DNA of 64,000 bases from Glycomyces sp. TRM65418 (GTDB taxonomy: Bacteria > Actinomycetota > Actinomycetes > Mycobacteriales > Micromonosporaceae), in NCBI RefSeq assembly GCF_019710475.1, contig NZ_JAJFAX010000002.1, positions 434,001 through 498,000 on the forward strand, in the 5' to 3' direction. Each line of letters starts with the position of its first letter. The stretch's first letter is position 1. The notes beneath the pieces were generated by a model. It did not search any database. It was not told the DNA's origin and saw nothing but the letters and a program-made list of their open reading frames with translations. Shown here piece after piece: positions 25,368 through 32,172 of this stretch. A program made the translations under genes and the position numbers.

Positions 25368-25529
25368 GTTTTCCACCATGGTCGGTATGTGCCAACCTCA
25401 AAATCCCGCCGCGCCCGTGTATCCCACCGGACTCGGGGGTCTCTTCCCCGGTGAATGACGTGATTCCCGCCCAGCCCGTGGCGTTCGCGGCATTCCGGGC
25501 TCGAGTGCCTCCCGACCTGCCGGAGCCCG

Positions 25530-25554
25530 CGTGGGACCCCACGTGTGGCACGTG
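25530..25554. promoter_or_regulatory. CACGTG-rich inverted repeat, candidate operator
   Basis: CGTGGG-AC-CCCACG (25530-25543) is a perfect inverted repeat. It overlaps two CACGTG hexamers at 25540-25545 and 25549-25554. Its place 75-100 nt before the subtilase start suggests a binding site for a regulator of the cassette. Confidence 0.35.
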
Positions 25555-25630
25555 GAGGGGAGAATCGATCGCGAAGGATCCCCCTCCTCAGAACAACCGC
25601 ATACCCCCCGAGTCAAGCAGAGGAGCTCCC

Positions 25631-27172
25631 ATGCGACTGGTGTTCGCCGATCACGAACCCCATTTGAAGCCCAATCCACGCCGCGACCACATGAGCGGCG
25701 TCCCTGAGTTGTCCTACTCCACTCTGGACCGACACGGCGGTCGAGTGCTGGCCCCGGGACAGGTCGTCCGCACCCCCGGGCGCCCCGCCCCGGTCGGCAC
25801 CATCTACCGCTACGACCGCCTGCTCGTGGACGGGTCGGTCATCCACGACGCCGAAGCCCGCGAGAAGCTCGAAGGCGCGATCCGCCCGACCGGCATGTCG
25901 CTCGAAAGCCGGGCCGCGAGCGCGATCATTCCGGGCCAGGGCTCGTACCGGGTCCCGGTGTTCAGCAATCACGGCGACCAATCCGCGGTCGATGCCTGGT
26001 CGCTGCTCCAGCGACTGCGCACCGCGAACGACGAGACGATCCTGCCGGACGAACTGCTCGACAAGGTCCGCCTGGAGCACCTCATGATCTGCTCGAAGGG
26101 CGGCCCGGGTGTCGGCAGCGGCGAGCCGCCGATCGGCGATACACGTTCTTTCACACTCGGTCGCATCCCGGTCGACATGGTGAACCCGATGCCCGGCCGC
26201 AGGCAACTGGACCGGCGACTGCGTGTGGCCATCCTGGACACCGGCGTTCCTACGAAGCACCCTGCCTTCGACGTTTCCGATCGCACTGAGCGCGAGGACA
26301 CCTTCGTGGTGGTCGACCACGCGTTCCAAGTCAAGCTCGGTGAGCACTCCGATTCGCCCGCGGCTCCGCTCGACGACCCGTGGGAGGGCCCGGTCCACGA
26401 ACCGACTCTCATCGGCGAGGTCGCCAGCCACTTCGGCCACGGCACCTTCATGACCGGCCTGCTCCGGCAGATGTCGCCAGACGTTCAGGTCTACTCGCTG
26501 CGAGTGGTTCACAACGACGGCCTCGCTTACGAGCACGAGGTCATCGCCGCGCTCCACCACGTGGCCGACCAGGTCGAGGCCGCCCGGCGCGGTGACGCAG
26601 AGGCGTTCGGCATCGATGTGGTCGTTCTGGCGATGGGGTACGTGGACGAGAACCCCGAGGACCAGCCCGGCGGCTGGATCGGGGAAGCGGTCAAACGCCT
26701 CTCCGCCCTCGGCATCCCCGTGGTGGCGGCTGCTGGAAACCAGTCCTCGGACCGGCCGTTCTACCCGGCGGCCTTCGCGGCGCACCCGCAGCTCGAGAAC
26801 GCGGCGCCGATCGTGAGCGTCGGAGCCCTGAACCCGAACCGCCATGTCGCGATGTTCTCGAACGAGGGCTCATGGGTCTCGTGCTACGCCACCGGGGCCG
26901 GGTTGGTGAGCACGTACCCGTGCGAGGCCAAGGGGTCGCGGATGCCTGACCGCCGTGTCAAGTCCACGATCCTTGACCGCCACCGCGAGAGCCACGATCC
27001 CGACGACTTCTCGTCCGGATACGCGGTCTGGAGCGGCACGTCGTTCGCCGCGCCTCTGGCTGCGGCGTTCTTGGTGAACGCGATGGCGGATACCGGCATG
27101 GCCGAGGTGGAAGACGCCATTCAAGCGTCAGCGCGTGCACACGAAGCGTTGAAGCAACTGAAGAACCGCTAG
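25631..27172 (+). CDS. Cytosolic S8 subtilisin-like protease of a CHAT-linked cassette
   Basis: A 513-residue subtilase. The catalytic triad is visible as Asp203 (AILDTGVP), His270 (HFGHGTFMTG) and Ser471 (WSGTSFAAPL), with the oxyanion Asn370 (AAAGNQS). Residues 1-195 form an N-terminal region without signal peptide or membrane helix, containing YRVPVFSNHGDQSAVDAWS and a VRLEHLMIC segment; it may be an inhibitory prodomain or a recognition domain. The lack of an export signal argues for action inside the cell, unusual for subtilases. I chose ATG 25631 because of AGGAG upstream. The stop TAG overlaps the TAGCCT promoter element of the sigma-factor gene. Recalled homologues in other actinobacteria sit beside CHAT proteins. 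Confidence 0.85.
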   Translation: MRLVFADHEPHLKPNPRRDHMSGVPELSYSTLDRHGGRVLAPGQVVRTPGRPAPVGTIYRYDRLLVDGSVIHDAEAREKLEGAIRPTGMSLESRAASAIIPGQGSYRVPVFSNHGDQSAVDAWSLLQRLRTANDETILPDELLDKVRLEHLMICSKGGPGVGSGEPPIGDTRSFTLGRIPVDMVNPMPGRRQLDRRLRVAILDTGVPTKHPAFDVSDRTEREDTFVVVDHAFQVKLGEHSDSPAAPLDDPWEGPVHEPTLIGEVASHFGHGTFMTGLLRQMSPDVQVYSLRVVHNDGLAYEHEVIAALHHVADQVEAARRGDAEAFGIDVVVLAMGYVDENPEDQPGGWIGEAVKRLSALGIPVVAAAGNQSSDRPFYPAAFAAHPQLENAAPIVSVGALNPNRHVAMFSNEGSWVSCYATGAGLVSTYPCEAKGSRMPDRRVKSTILDRHRESHDPDDFSSGYAVWSGTSFAAPLAAAFLVNAMADTGMAEVEDAIQASARAHEALKQLKNR

Positions 27173-27175
27173 CCT
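27170..27175 (+). promoter_or_regulatory. -10 element of the cassette sigma-factor gene, inside the subtilase stop
   Basis: TAGCCT ends 6 nt before ATG 27182. Its first three bases are the subtilase stop codon. The sigma-factor gene may therefore have its own leaderless transcript. Confidence 0.55.
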
Positions 27176-27181
27176 CAAGTC

Positions 27182-27799
27182 ATGAACGTGACTTCGGCTC
27201 ATTCGGTGGCCGCCGTGGATTACGACCGGCGCGCGCAGCTCTATCTGGCTGCGCGCGCCGGCGACGGCACTGCGCAGCAGACCCTCGTCGGCGAGCTCAA
27301 TGAGCTCCTCTGGCGAGCGGCCCGCCGTACGGGACTCGACAGGGAGAGTGCTTCGGACGTCGTGCAGACGGCCTGGCTTCGGCTGTGGCACATCGAGAAA
27401 GAGCTGGAACAGCCTCGAGCGCTGACCAAGTGGTTGCTCACCACCGTCAGCCGAGAAGCCTGGAAGCAGATCGGGCACATGCGACGAGAGCTCGTCGCCG
27501 ATCCGATCGACATCCAGGAGGAAGCGGCCCTCGAGGATATCGAGGACGGCTTCGTCCGTGCTGCCGAGCGAGAGGCCGTGCGTCGTGCCTTCCTCGCCCA
27601 ACCAGAACGGTGCCGGCGACTGCTCGCCTTCGTGGCGACCGTCGCCCGGCCCGATTACGACGTCATCGCCGAGGCACTCGGGATGAAAAGGGGGAGCATC
27701 GGACCCACACGGGGCCGTTGCTTGGACAAACTGAGGAAGACGCTCCTGGACGATCCGTCCTGGGGTGGAGGTGAGGAGCGGGATGAAGATGCGACCTGA
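27182..27799 (+). CDS. ECF-type RNA polymerase sigma factor of the CHAT cassette
   Basis: A 205-residue sigma factor. Region 2 spans about 20-90 (SASDVVQTAWLRLWHIE) and region 4 about 125-185 with the helix-turn-helix DVIAEALGMKRGSIGPTRGR. The GSIGPTRGRCLDKLRK wording belongs to an ECF group that, as I recall, is repeatedly found beside CHAT/subtilase genes. Base composition is noticeably less GC-rich than the flanking core genes. There is no adjacent transmembrane anti-sigma factor; the next, overlapping gene is the best candidate regulator. Probable target: the cassette itself, unproven. Confidence 0.85.
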   Translation: MNVTSAHSVAAVDYDRRAQLYLAARAGDGTAQQTLVGELNELLWRAARRTGLDRESASDVVQTAWLRLWHIEKELEQPRALTKWLLTTVSREAWKQIGHMRRELVADPIDIQEEAALEDIEDGFVRAAEREAVRRAFLAQPERCRRLLAFVATVARPDYDVIAEALGMKRGSIGPTRGRCLDKLRKTLLDDPSWGGGEERDEDAT

Positions 27800-28319
27800 A
27801 TACGAGAGTCAGGGTGAATTCGAGCCATTGGACTCCTGCGACGAGCGGATTCTCGCCGTGATCAACGAGCTGCATCGGCGAGACGACCCGATGCCGGAGG
27901 ACCTCAATGAGCGAGTGCAATTTGCGCTCGAACTCGAAGCCGAACTCGACGCACGGGTGGCGCGCGTTTCGCGCTCCAGTGAACTGGTTCTCACACGTGG
28001 GGACGCTGATCTCATTGTAGGCCAGGGTGATCCAGCGTCGATCACGTTCGACTGCGAAACGGTCACGGTTATGGTCACGCCTCGCCCTTCGGCGCTGCGA
28101 GAGCTGCGCCTTGACGGATGGATAGGTCCTGAGGGCACTTACGAAGTTGAACTCAGAAGTCCGGAGGGTTCGAGAAGGGCTTCGACCGATGAGACCGGTC
28201 GGTTCGTTCTCGAAGGTCTGCCCGACGGTCAGATGTTCCAACTGGTGATCCGGCCGGATGAGACGCTGCAGCGGGAAGGGCTACCGGCGGTCGTCGTGAC
28301 GCCTGCGGTGCGGTTGTAG
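27783..28319 (+). CDS. Small cassette protein with C-terminal beta domain (possible sigma regulator)
   Basis: A 178-residue soluble protein that overlaps the sigma-factor gene by 17 nt; GAGGAG lies 5 nt before ATG 27783 (ATG 27789 is also possible). Residues 1-65 are helical and acidic with DPMPEDLNERVQFALELEAE, a segment I recall as conserved in proteins encoded next to such sigma factors. Residues ~75-178 look like two beta-rich pieces: VTVMVTPRPSALRELRLDGW and a carboxypeptidase-regulatory-like ending (ASTDETGRFVLEGLPDG). There is no catalytic motif and no membrane helix. Translational overlap and position suggest an anti-sigma or adaptor role; this is inference. Confidence 0.7.
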   Translation: MKMRPEYESQGEFEPLDSCDERILAVINELHRRDDPMPEDLNERVQFALELEAELDARVARVSRSSELVLTRGDADLIVGQGDPASITFDCETVTVMVTPRPSALRELRLDGWIGPEGTYEVELRSPEGSRRASTDETGRFVLEGLPDGQMFQLVIRPDETLQREGLPAVVVTPAVRL

Positions 28320-28329
28320 CATGTGAAGA

Positions 28330-30843
28330 ATGCTTCACAGTGCCTGGCGCTTGTTCTCACGTGGGCACCGACTTCAGGGTAGGTGGCGCATCTCCGAGGC
28401 CGCCGAGGTGTTCGATGAGGCGCTGAAGCTGCTGGCGTGGAATCCGTCGGCGCCTCCGGAAGCTGGTACTGCACGGGCGAGACTCACTGCCCGAATTCTC
28501 ATCTCCCGTGCTTTGACATGGACTTACTCGGGTGATGCTCCCGCAGGATTGGCCTTGCTCGACCAGGTGGACCGCTTCGTGGATGAGCGGGATCGCGGAC
28601 TGCTGATGCATCAACGGGCGATGATCCTTCACCAGAACGGGCGGCCGGTAGACGCGCTTGCCTGGTTCGATCTCGCCGAACCGATACTCAGAAAGCACGG
28701 TCCCGACTGGACCTATGCAGGGCTGTTCTTGAACCGTGCGAACGCGTTGAGAGACCTGGGAATACTCGGCAAGGGACTGGAGAACGCGACGAGGGCTCGC
28801 GAACTCTTCGCGAAGCTCGGCCGTCGTCTCAACCAAGTGAAGGCGCAGCATGTGGAAGCGCTCTTGCTGCTCGATTTGGGCGAGGTCGCCAAGGCGCTCG
28901 CAGAATTCGAGGAGGTTCGGGCCCAATACCGAGAGCACGCTCCTGAACTGGAAGCGTTCGTCCACGGTTCCAACGCCGATGCGCTTCTCTATGTGGGTAT
29001 GTATCGGCAATCGGCCGAGCACTGGGCTGAAGCCATAGCTGCCTTGCGTCTGGCGGGCGACCATCGCACAGCGGCGATTTACGAGTATTGGCGCGCGGTC
29101 ACCGCTTTCGAAGACAATCAACTGAAGCTCGCCACCGATTGGGCGAAGCGAGCGATGAATTCTCTCTATGCGCAAGGCAATGAGCCGATGGCCTTCTTGG
29201 CGAGACTCCTGATTCTTCAGGGAGAATTCGACTCGGAGACTGAAGGCCCCGACTTCGCCGACAAGGTGTCCCGCCTTTGCGACGCCCTCGAACAGCGCGG
29301 ATGGACCCTCCGGCTCAAGCAGGCCCGTATTTTGGCTGCTCGGGCCCGCATCAGGGCGCGTGACCTCGAAGGCGTGGAAGTCGCCTTGGCGGATGAGGAG
29401 AGCGGCCCGGGCTACGAGGCGCTGGCCGAGGGTTTGGCCAGGCACCTTGCCAAGGCGGAGCTCGCCAGCGCTCGCGGGTTGGATCCGATTCCCGAACTGA
29501 AAGCAGGCCTCGATCAGCTGGACGAGTACCGAATGGCGTTCGGTTCGGTGGAATTCCAGGCGGGAGTCTCCGCCCTCGGCGTGCAGTTGTCCGGCAAAGG
29601 TTTGATCCACACCACCAATCATGGATCACCTGCGGAGATGCTCTGGTGGAGCGAGCGGTCCCGCGCCCAGGGCCTTCGCATCCCCCCGGTCAAATCGGCG
29701 ACCGAACCTGATGCGCGAGAAGCGCTCGGCCGGCTTCGTCAAGCACGTCAACGACTCTGGGACCTCCAAGTACAAGGTTCGGAAGGGAGCGAAGAACTTG
29801 AGCGGGTCCGCCAACTCGAAGAAGAGATCCGCGCCTACGACCGGACCAAGCCCGGACCTGGAGAGCAGGCCGAGCGCATCGCCCCCGATGCCATCCATGA
29901 CCTGGCGAAAGCCCGTGACACCGTTGTGGTCAGCCTTTACGAGGTCGGCGGCGATGTGCGTGCGATTCTCGCGGGGGGCGACGGCATTCAGCATGTCCGG
30001 CTGATGCAGCTCGAAGCGGCCGTGGAACTTGAACGCCGCATGGGAGCTGACTTGGATGCCCTCGGGAAGCCGTTTCGACTTCCGCCCCGCCTCCAGGCGA
30101 GCGTCGAAGGCTCGCTCCGCCGCAACGCCTCCGCGCTCGCCGAAGGCATCTGGGAGCCCATCGCCGCCTACGTTGGCGACCGCCAGGTGGTCATCGTGCC
30201 GCACAGCCGACTCGCCTGGGTGCCCTGGCCGCTGCTGCCGCAGCTCCGCGGGCGGCCGGTCACGGTCTCGCCTTCGGCCGAGGCATGGTGGCGGGCGGTC
30301 CATCGGAGTGCTGCCACCGGCCCCGCCCTCGTGGCGGCCGGCCCTGCGCTCTCCCGAGCGGGCGGGGAGATCGAGACGATCGCGGGTCTCTACCCGGGGG
30401 CGAATCTCATCACCGCAGATAAGTCCGATCCCGAACTCATCCTACGAGCGCTCGACGGTGCCTCGGTCGCCCACATTGCGGCGCACGGCCACCACGAGCC
30501 CGACAACGTCCTGTTCTCGCGCCTGGACTTCGGTCTCGGTCCGCTCAACGCGTACGAGCTCCTCGGTCTGGACCAGCCGCCCGGGCATGTGGTGCTCTCC
30601 TCGTGCGACCTCGGCCGGTCGACCGTGGCAGTCGGGAACGAGACCCTCGGCTTCACCGCGGCGCTCCTGCACGCCGGTACCTCCACTGTGGTCTCCAGCC
30701 TCGGCCGCGTACCCGACGACATGGCCGCCGAGATGATGATCGAGTACCACCGCCGCTGCGCCGCGGGCGCGACTCCCGCCGAAGCCCTCGCCGCCGTCGG
30801 TGAGCACCGCCCCTGGCATCCCTTCGTCGCGTTCGGCGCCTGA
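28330..30843 (+). CDS. TPR-CHAT caspase-like protease
   Basis: An 837-residue protein. Residues ~1-430 are a helical tetratricopeptide-like array (repeated A-x3-F/W-x2-A patterns such as EAAEVFDEALKLL, DALAWFDLAEPIL). A charged coiled stretch near 470-530 follows, then a CHAT (caspase-HetF associated with TPRs) peptidase domain from ~545. The catalytic dyad is His719 in HIAAHGHH and Cys759 in VVLSSCDLG; the helix TLGFTAALLHAGTSTVVSSL follows as in other CHAT domains. CHAT enzymes are caspase-clan cysteine proteases, some activated by ligands of their TPR part. The start is 10 nt after the previous stop. The TPR half is lower in GC than the CHAT half. Confidence 0.9.
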   Translation: MLHSAWRLFSRGHRLQGRWRISEAAEVFDEALKLLAWNPSAPPEAGTARARLTARILISRALTWTYSGDAPAGLALLDQVDRFVDERDRGLLMHQRAMILHQNGRPVDALAWFDLAEPILRKHGPDWTYAGLFLNRANALRDLGILGKGLENATRARELFAKLGRRLNQVKAQHVEALLLLDLGEVAKALAEFEEVRAQYREHAPELEAFVHGSNADALLYVGMYRQSAEHWAEAIAALRLAGDHRTAAIYEYWRAVTAFEDNQLKLATDWAKRAMNSLYAQGNEPMAFLARLLILQGEFDSETEGPDFADKVSRLCDALEQRGWTLRLKQARILAARARIRARDLEGVEVALADEESGPGYEALAEGLARHLAKAELASARGLDPIPELKAGLDQLDEYRMAFGSVEFQAGVSALGVQLSGKGLIHTTNHGSPAEMLWWSERSRAQGLRIPPVKSATEPDAREALGRLRQARQRLWDLQVQGSEGSEELERVRQLEEEIRAYDRTKPGPGEQAERIAPDAIHDLAKARDTVVVSLYEVGGDVRAILAGGDGIQHVRLMQLEAAVELERRMGADLDALGKPFRLPPRLQASVEGSLRRNASALAEGIWEPIAAYVGDRQVVIVPHSRLAWVPWPLLPQLRGRPVTVSPSAEAWWRAVHRSAATGPALVAAGPALSRAGGEIETIAGLYPGANLITADKSDPELILRALDGASVAHIAAHGHHEPDNVLFSRLDFGLGPLNAYELLGLDQPPGHVVLSSCDLGRSTVAVGNETLGFTAALLHAGTSTVVSSLGRVPDDMAAEMMIEYHRRCAAGATPAEALAAVGEHRPWHPFVAFGA

Positions 30844-30876: not shown

Positions 30877-32172
30877 ATGACCGCTCCCGAGCCCGACCGC
30901 GACACCGAACCCGAGTCCGGTCGCCGACCCGAGTCGATGTTCCGCAACCCCGATCACCTGAAGCTCTTCACCTCCGTCGGAGCGAGCCAAATCGGCCTCC
31001 AGATCGCGTACTTCTCGATCTCGATCATCGCCGTGGTCGTGCTGGACCTCAGCGAATCCCAGATCGGGGTCCTGTACGCGATGGACCAGATCGCGCTGGT
31101 GCTCTTCGGCCTGCTGGTCGGCGTCTGGGTCGACCGGTTGCGGGACAAGCCGATCATCATCGTCAGCGAGATCTTCAGGGCGGCCGTGATGCTGAGCGTC
31201 CCCGTCGCCTGGGCGCTCGACGCGCTGACCGTCTGGCATGTGTACGCGGCGATGTTCCTGCTCGGCGTGGCCTCGGTGTTCTTCGATGTCGCGCAGGTCA
31301 GCTTCGTGCCCCGGCTGATCGACAACAACAGCCTCACCCGAGGGAATTCGCGGATCCACGGGATCAGGTCGGCCTCCGACACGGGCGGGCCCCTGGCCGC
31401 CGGGCCGCTGGTGTCGCTGCTGACCGCGCCGGTCGCGATCGTCGTGGCGGTGGTGTCGTTCGCCGTGTCGGCCTTCTCGGTCACCCGGATCCAGTACCGC
31501 GAAGAGGAACCCGAACGGGCCGAGAAGCCGCACGTCTGGACCGAGATCGTTCAGGGCGTCAAGTTCATCTTCCACGACATGATCCTGCGGAACATCGCGA
31601 TCGCGAGCGCCTGGTGCAACCTGTCGGTCGGCGCCTTCCAGGCCATGCTCATGGTGTTCCTCATCCGGGAGGCCGGCCAGTCGAGCGAGGTCGCCGGCTT
31701 CATCCTCGCCGGCTCCGGCGCCGGAGGCGTCCTGGGCGCGATGCTGGTCGGCCGTCTCTCGAAGCGGGCGGGCGTCGGCCCGACGGCGATCGCGGCGCTG
31801 GCGGTGTCCGGTCCCGGCATGGCGATCGTCGCCGCTTCCGGTCCCGGTTGGGGCGCTGCGGTGGCGTTCGCCGGGCAGGTGGTGTTCGTGTCCGCGGTCG
31901 TCGTGTTCAACGTGAACGTCATCAGCTACCGCCAGGCGGTCACCCCGGACGACATGCAGGGCCGAGTGGGGGCGACGCAGCGGGTGATCTGCTGGGCGGC
32001 GATGGCGGTCGGCTCGATCCTCGGCGGTTTCACGGGCGATCTCCTCAGCGCCCGGGCCGTGCTCTTGATCGCCGCCGCCATGTTGTGCCTCGGGTTCCTC
32101 CCGCTGTTGCGGACGCCGTTCCGGAGTCTGCGCGCGATTCCCGAAGAGCACGAAGTGCGGGCGAAGCCGTAG
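30877..32172 (+). CDS. MFS transporter, DHA3-type exporter
   Basis: A 431-residue major facilitator protein with about 12 hydrophobic helices and a 25-residue charged N-terminus. The loop GVWVDRLRDKPIIIVSE between helices 2 and 3 is the MFS motif A variant (G-x3-D-R), and SFVPRLIDNNSLTRGNS is typical of the drug/macrolide-type DHA3 group. It starts 33 nt after the CHAT gene on the same strand, with GAGAAGG upstream, so read-through from the cassette is possible. Its GC content resembles core genes. Substrate is unknown. Confidence 0.85.
   Translation: MTAPEPDRDTEPESGRRPESMFRNPDHLKLFTSVGASQIGLQIAYFSISIIAVVVLDLSESQIGVLYAMDQIALVLFGLLVGVWVDRLRDKPIIIVSEIFRAAVMLSVPVAWALDALTVWHVYAAMFLLGVASVFFDVAQVSFVPRLIDNNSLTRGNSRIHGIRSASDTGGPLAAGPLVSLLTAPVAIVVAVVSFAVSAFSVTRIQYREEEPERAEKPHVWTEIVQGVKFIFHDMILRNIAIASAWCNLSVGAFQAMLMVFLIREAGQSSEVAGFILAGSGAGGVLGAMLVGRLSKRAGVGPTAIAALAVSGPGMAIVAASGPGWGAAVAFAGQVVFVSAVVVFNVNVISYRQAVTPDDMQGRVGATQRVICWAAMAVGSILGGFTGDLLSARAVLLIAAAMLCLGFLPLLRTPFRSLRAIPEEHEVRAKP

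Follow-up and report, generated by a model that had tools for sequence, protein, structure and literature searches.

A cassette of four genes was identified on the forward (+) strand of a 64,000-nucleotide stretch of DNA (the window) from the soil bacterium Glycomyces sp. TRM65418 (NCBI RefSeq assembly GCF_019710475.1, contig NZ_JAJFAX010000002.1, positions 434,001 to 498,000); all positions below are those of the window. The first gene (25631..27172) encodes a subtilase of peptidase family S8 (SUB; 513 residues; PF00082, Peptidase_S8, E-value 7e-21) with the triad Asp203 (26237-26239), His270 (26438-26440) and Ser471 (27041-27043). It is followed by the gene of an extracytoplasmic function (ECF)-type sigma factor (SIG; 27182..27799; PF04542, Sigma70_r2, 2e-7), which is ECF54-like by gene context, and by that of a 178-residue small protein (SML; 27783..28319), a candidate anti-sigma factor and protease substrate according to its AlphaFold2 model and fold comparison. 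The last gene (28330..30843) encodes a tetratricopeptide repeat (TPR)-CHAT protease (Pfam CHAT, 6.9e-28) with the dyad His719 (30484-30486) and Cys759 (30604-30606); its helical repeats occupy residues ~1-430 and a separase-like protease region residues ~430-837. An earlier reading of the window made from the sequence alone (the sequence-only reading) had placed these four open reading frames (ORFs) on one strand in this order and at these coordinates, which was borne out, and the catalytic residues are intact. The ATG of SUB is preceded by GAGGAG, and its reading frame remains open further upstream to a GTG at 25451. The ATG of SML also comes after a GAGGAG, with a GTG at 27765 as a possible alternative start, and the SML gene overlaps that of SIG. 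A hydropathy scan of the subtilase gave a maximum of 1.36 over 19 residues, i.e., no obvious membrane anchor. Upstream of SUB, a promoter predicted for the sigma factor (25418..25445, + strand) consists of TGTATC (25418-25423), a 17-bp spacer and CTCTT (25441-25445), and an untranslated leader of ~185 nt (25446..25630, + strand) is conserved in an alignment of 21 Glycomyces sequences.

Among 61 genomes of relatives, SML was found in 33, including all 22 of Glycomyces, and all four genes occurred together in 20 congeners and in 11 of the 12 loci from more distant relatives, the twelfth of which (L044) is broken by a contig end. The main sample comprised 296 Actinomycetia genomes, drawn evenly. 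In this sample, the first SML profile recognized 79 genomes (80 of its 85 places were taken as loci), a wider SML profile 101 genomes and the CHAT profile 104 genomes. SML and this TPR-CHAT were both present in 99 genomes, while 5 had CHAT only (four of them with weak CHAT matches), 2 had SML only and 190 had neither, which gives a phi of 0.95 with a nominal p value that is inflated by genome kinship. At the genus level, SML and CHAT were each present in 51 of 115. The two genes were within 10 kb of each other in 76 of the 99 genomes, compared to ~0.5 expected by a rough formula. Thus, the co-occurrence that the sequence-only reading had proposed as a check is found, and its view of the four genes as a conserved unit is supported by linkage as well as co-occurrence. 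In an all-against-all comparison of the genes called up to 7 kb from SML (112 loci), SIG, SUB, CHAT and SML were spread over 19, 18, 18 and 17 taxon labels, respectively, and the next cluster over 5.

The four genes are not equally tightly linked. In the 80 loci of the first SML profile, SIG was located ~0.5 kb 5' of SML in 79 (the exception being L134), and CHAT was no more than 8 kb from SML in 57, one of them with a weak match. In the set of named loci built on SIG, i.e., the best 80 of 272 relatives' loci, SML was present in 79, CHAT in 68 and SUB in 58, and some lineages carried SIG, SML and CHAT without a subtilase. SML and CHAT were more than 10 kb apart in 23 of the 99 genomes with both. 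Where CHAT was away from SML, a divergent subtilase adjoined it in the loci of 19 of 20 genomes, with L188 at a contig end. From 19 of the 26 genomes initially scored as SML-negative, 20 CHAT places were examined; with the wider profile, SML was found near 19 and SIG near 18 of them. We therefore conclude from the split loci and the lineages without subtilase that SIG and SML are a regulatory pair and that SUB goes with CHAT. By their distribution, SIG-SML and SUB-CHAT behave as two modules that are co-retained even if unlinked. No ORF matched two of the four family profiles, so no fusions were found.

The residues of both proteases that the sequence-only reading had named as catalytic are retained throughout. 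Asp203, His270 and Ser471 of the subtilase were kept in all 142 non-Glycomyces loci with aligned columns (143 loci in all), and His719 and Cys759 of CHAT in all 158 with both columns aligned (167 loci in all). The CHAT model contains a clan CD fold with the His/Cys dyad and fits the catalytic region of separase with a root-mean-square deviation of 2.6 A over 301 residues. Separase cuts after Arg. CHAT differs from separase in that it is bacterial, has no cohesin to act on and shows only a weak sequence match to Separin (E-value 0.1). In L055 the CHAT gene consists of two overlapping ORFs, for which a frameshift or an assembly error is likely. The contig of the window also encodes, beyond the window itself, another CHAT protein that is more distant (39.7 bits, in a 730-residue frame; G000:C12:137758-138141).

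SIG matched TIGR02937 (sigma70-ECF) at 8.1e-15 over residues 32-188 and ECF sigma factors of the PDB at 7e-10. It has regions 2 and 4 only, as ECF sigma factors do, and its region-4 motif GSIGPTRGRCL is nearly invariant among 16 aligned relatives. The review PMC8999054, in the text available, lists ECF54 of Actinobacteria under proteolysis with subtilase, CHAT and carboxypeptidase domains in its gene context, and cites Casas-Pastor 2021 and Huang 2015 in its treatment of the group. The gene set found here matches this context, although its 'carboxypeptidase' match is below the cut-off, and the assignment to ECF54 is one by gene context. Hence, the existence of the gene set was already known, and its mechanism was not.

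In the AlphaFold2 model (pLDDT 78), SML consists of a helical hairpin (helices at residues 18-34 and 41-54), a disordered linker (65-82) and an FN3-like beta-sandwich (87-178). SML relatives matched CarboxypepD_reg at 7e-5 to 1e-3, below the Pfam cut-off. Of 175 non-Glycomyces homologues, 172 had Arg at the linker column of Arg72, a count from the alignment that replaces that of a first regular expression (51 of 175), and the residue next to it was Gly, Ser, Ala or Thr in 166 of these 172. This Arg is also one of four invariant columns among 48 diverse SMLs. The bond between Arg72 and Gly73 (27996..28001, + strand) is our candidate cleavage site on account of the conservation of the Arg. SML appears to be soluble. 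Alignment and model together support a two-domain protein whose disordered linker carries a near-invariant Arg, which is the type of site needed by the mechanism, advanced in the sequence-only reading, in which a protease relieves the hold of the small protein on the sigma factor.

The promoter element points to the output of such a switch. TGTATC is identical in the window and 20 congeners (21 sequences aligned). Of the 22 Glycomyces genomes, 21 have exact TGTATC-N17-CTCTT at the cassette. Elsewhere in these genomes it occurs twice, and a reversed control gave 1 match. Outside Glycomyces, where the element was scored out of 11 matches at spacing 17, sites with a score of at least 10 were found in 204 loci 25 times before SUB, 18 times before SIG, once before SML and never before CHAT, and spacings of 14-16 gave 0-1 such sites. 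The element was found before the first cassette gene at a score of at least 9 in 98 of 174 non-Glycomyces loci, compared to 3% of random windows from the same loci, and its consensus is [TC]GTATC[AT]G-N15-CTC[CT]T. This distribution is the trace expected from an autoregulating ECF factor, and the proposal that SIG regulates its own cassette through the element is well supported by these comparisons. That the cassette is induced, as the sequence-only reading held, is likely on the same grounds, by autoregulation from a conserved cassette promoter.

The leader downstream of the element (25446-25630) contains inverted-repeat-like blocks, GGAGGGGA ... TCCCCCTCC, which are conserved across Glycomyces. 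A structured RNA is not claimed, given that the consensus fold was weak (8 pairs, one with a two-sided change). The one Rfam match lay elsewhere in the cassette and was below its cut-off. A leader peptide was dismissed on visual inspection, given the single-base indels seen in congeners; in these, the stretch from the GTG at 25451 to the subtilase ATG contains such indels as well as stops.

In other lineages, the element is also found before further protease genes. Trypsin-like genes stood beside the cassette in 12 loci, with the element at a score of at least 9 before 11 of them; their proteins had GDSGS in all 12 and TN[FW]HV in 11 of 12 cases, and matched Pfam Trypsin_2 at 0.051 only. Papain-like genes stood beside it in 4 loci, all four behind an element with a score of at least 10. 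The one papain-like protein tested matched PF00112 at 3.2e-35, and the catalytic Cys is replaced by Ser in three of the four (L268, L271 and L279, each behind the element), while L284 retains it. A trypsin- or papain-like gene was found in 8 of the 22 named loci without subtilase and in 8 of the 58 with it (p 0.03), a weak sign that trypsin-like, papain-like and subtilase proteases may stand in for each other. The subtilase gene follows the sigma promoter, some lineages lack it, and in split cassettes it is paired with CHAT rather than with the sigma factor; because of this, the subtilase is better read as an output of the switch or a partner of CHAT than as the regulator that the sequence-only reading had allowed it to be.

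Several other genes near the cassettes were observed. A LuxR-type regulator lies near 9 loci, with the element before 7 (L141, L146, L147, L148, L150, L153 and L158). These regulators have an AAA-like domain, are encoded several kb from the cassette and have the element 34-71 bp before their predicted start. The trypsin-like proteins of L269 and L276 have long EPFT repeat tails. In the window, a gene that a look at the N-terminus suggests to encode an MFS-type transporter (30877-32172) begins 33 nt past CHAT on the same strand. It is perhaps co-transcribed with the cassette, since similar genes are found near the cassette in several congeners and at three loci of another family.

Taken together, these findings led us to propose that the cassette works as an ECF-sigma switch that is triggered by a protease and amplifies itself, with CHAT cutting SML after Arg72 to free the sigma factor, a proposal to which we would give an even chance. 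In the resting state, the N-terminal helical domain of SML would keep hold of the ECF54-type sigma factor. The TPR repeats would read a signal and turn on the CHAT protease, and this separase-like cysteine protease would, judging from conservation, model and fold, cut SML after Arg72 and part the sigma-holding domain from the FN3-like domain. Once free, the sigma factor would use TGTATC-N17-CTCYT to transcribe the operon that encodes it, and in other lineages also additional genes for cytosolic proteases. The output would thus be a burst of proteases with the subtilase as its usual member. Of these steps, the binding of SML to the sigma factor, the sensing by the TPR part and the cleavage of SML by CHAT are those that we infer.

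Several observations weigh against this proposal. In 76 of the 174 loci, no near-match to the element was found before the first cassette gene. Across the 296 genomes, TGTATCWS-N15-CTCYT, a pattern that misses the Glycomyces sites (TGTATCC or TGTATCT), gave 77 matches compared to ~90 in the reversed control (hand sum). By hand count, 19 of these 77 had an SML or CHAT place no more than 10 kb away, and only position was informative. No wide regulon is claimed because the exact pattern is not in genome-wide excess; when 20 exact-pattern sites were inspected, only two had sensible downstream genes, SIG (L357) and S8 (L360). SML as a whole had no Foldseek match at or below 0.001 and no recognized anti-sigma domain, and the available text of PMC8999054 lists ECF54 without an anti-sigma factor. 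By mutual information, SIG and SML were no more strongly coupled than after shuffling within clades, and mean-field direct coupling gave no outlying pairs. A cluster of top direct-coupling pairs (SIG columns 112-144 with the N-terminal part of SML) was not borne out, as it had 4 of the top 60 pairs by mutual information compared to 4-5 in clade shuffles. Finally, Arg72 may be conserved for docking or for structural reasons.

The lack of a recognized anti-sigma domain and the absence of a coevolution signal would fit a role of SML as a positive partner or signaling substrate, in which the Arg serves for docking or the released FN3-like domain is active and the sigma factor is not inhibited. We consider this unlikely, given that a lone, almost fully conserved Arg that is followed by a small residue and lies where the model shows disorder has the pattern of a cleavage site, and that SIG precedes SML in the gene order typical of sigma/anti-sigma pairs. 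It is similarly improbable that SML is cut at Arg72 by the subtilase or a trypsin-like protease, with CHAT as a downstream effector. An Arg suits trypsin-like enzymes too, and orphan SIG-SML pairs whose locus has no CHAT retain the Arg as well, but the subtilase is missing in 22 of the 80 named loci compared to 12 for CHAT, several lineages retain SIG-SML-CHAT without a subtilase, and only 12 loci were found to carry a trypsin-like gene. According to the published proposal, the target of the proteases is the ECF54 factor, which they would hold at a low level, with the 'carboxypeptidase' as one of them and no anti-sigma factor, consistent with the listing of the group under proteolysis with carboxypeptidase, subtilase and CHAT in its context (PMC8999054, as far as its available text goes). 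The sole candidate for this 'carboxypeptidase' is SML, whose relatives match a regulatory-like beta-sandwich below the cut-off and whose modelled FN3-like sandwich is non-enzymatic. SIG and SML are moreover the tightest pair of the set, and the sigma promoter lies in front of the protease genes themselves, all of which makes the published proposal of low probability for this cassette.

It is very improbable that the cassette serves for antiphage defence or suicide, with CHAT and the subtilase killing the infected cell. CHAT proteases do serve in known defence systems, including Craspase (PMC10028731, in the part available), but the cassette is present in all 22 Glycomyces genomes searched, and in one family its position is fixed between the same flanking genes. 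Plasmid and phage collections yielded one plasmid record and one phage record only, and the single PADLOC match, in which the TPR part aligned to GajA (9e-4, 16 bits), appears to be a chance one. The phage-defence or death programme suggested by the sequence-only reading is thus not supported, chiefly because of the distribution of the cassette. The plasmid record, NZ_LT559118.1, is an 11.85-Mb Nonomuraea sequence of chromosome size. The phage record, MT838002.1, is an unannotated 7.5-kb faecal 'Bacteriophage sp.' and possibly a mislabelled bacterial contig, which encodes an SML relative of 38% identity at 1714-2130.

The proposed switch most closely resembles the Csx29-Csx30-CASP-sigma pathway of type III-E CRISPR. 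Apart from PMC8999054, the literature that we found pairing CHAT with sigma factors concerns type III-E CRISPR, for which the text available of PMC10028731 describes a TPR-CHAT protein, an ECF inhibitor and a sigma factor. As available in PMC10028731 and PMC11106740, this pathway likewise combines a TPR-CHAT whose catalytic dyad is His/Cys with a two-domain soluble protein and an ECF sigma factor that has sites at the locus encoding it; in type III-E, the inhibition is lifted by cleavage. CHAT proteases are common, and in the literature searched, as far as available, the CRISPR-linked ones are the only ones with an assigned cellular substrate. There are also differences. CHAT matched the Csx29 family NF041237 at E-value 0.011 and 14.6 bits, compared to a cut-off of 300, and Cas7-11 or CRISPR genes were not among the recurrent neighbours at 112 loci (7 kb around SML), although arrays were not specifically searched for. 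SML has 178 residues whereas Csx30 has ~565. It had no NCBIfam match at E-value 1, with the inclusion of a Csx30 model in that library not established, and its fold search gave no Csx30 among the matches listed. According to the part of PMC11106740 available, Craspases cut Csx30 at non-conserved A|S, L|D and M|K bonds in its C-terminal domain, whereas the candidate site of SML is at a conserved Arg in a linker. The cassette would work like Csx29-Csx30-CASP-sigma without the CRISPR part, but by its Csx29 score, its recurrent neighbours and its candidate cut site it does not belong to type III-E.

With membrane-bound anti-sigma factors of the RseA/RsiW type, the proposed switch would share the freeing of an ECF sigma factor by proteolysis of its inhibitor, and it differs from them in that SML is apparently soluble and, by eye, lacks a zinc anti-sigma motif, and that the protease is a cytosolic CHAT of the same operon. 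Relative to ECF54 as described in PMC8999054, which has in common an ECF sigma factor of Actinobacteria beside subtilase, CHAT and 'carboxypeptidase' genes and for which proteolysis was proposed, the available text of that review gives neither an anti-sigma factor nor a mechanism, whereas we read the 'carboxypeptidase' as a two-domain candidate anti-sigma factor with a cleavage site and add an autoregulatory promoter and extra protease targets. On a broader scale, we put forward, at somewhat less than an even chance, a CRISPR-free chromosomal pathway of about one third of the 296 Actinomycetia genomes, in which a separase-like, Arg-specific protease would cut a soluble anti-sigma factor at one conserved Arg and launch a burst of cytosolic proteases that amplifies itself and draws on several unrelated clans (S8, trypsin-like, papain-like). 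Type III-E Craspase would then be the CRISPR-controlled relative of a far more widespread switch from protease to transcription.

New in this study are the co-occurrence of SML and CHAT, the two modules, the promoter element, the architecture of SML with its conserved Arg and the match of the CHAT model to separase. Because the locus supplies a candidate substrate (SML), a bond (Arg72-Gly73) and a promoter output, and organisms that are easy to handle in the laboratory are available, the 'proteolysis-regulated' ECF54 group becomes directly testable. If the proposal holds, protease-to-sigma signaling of the Craspase kind would be a widespread actinobacterial pathway rather than a CRISPR oddity, and separase-type enzymes would be linked to bacterial transcription.

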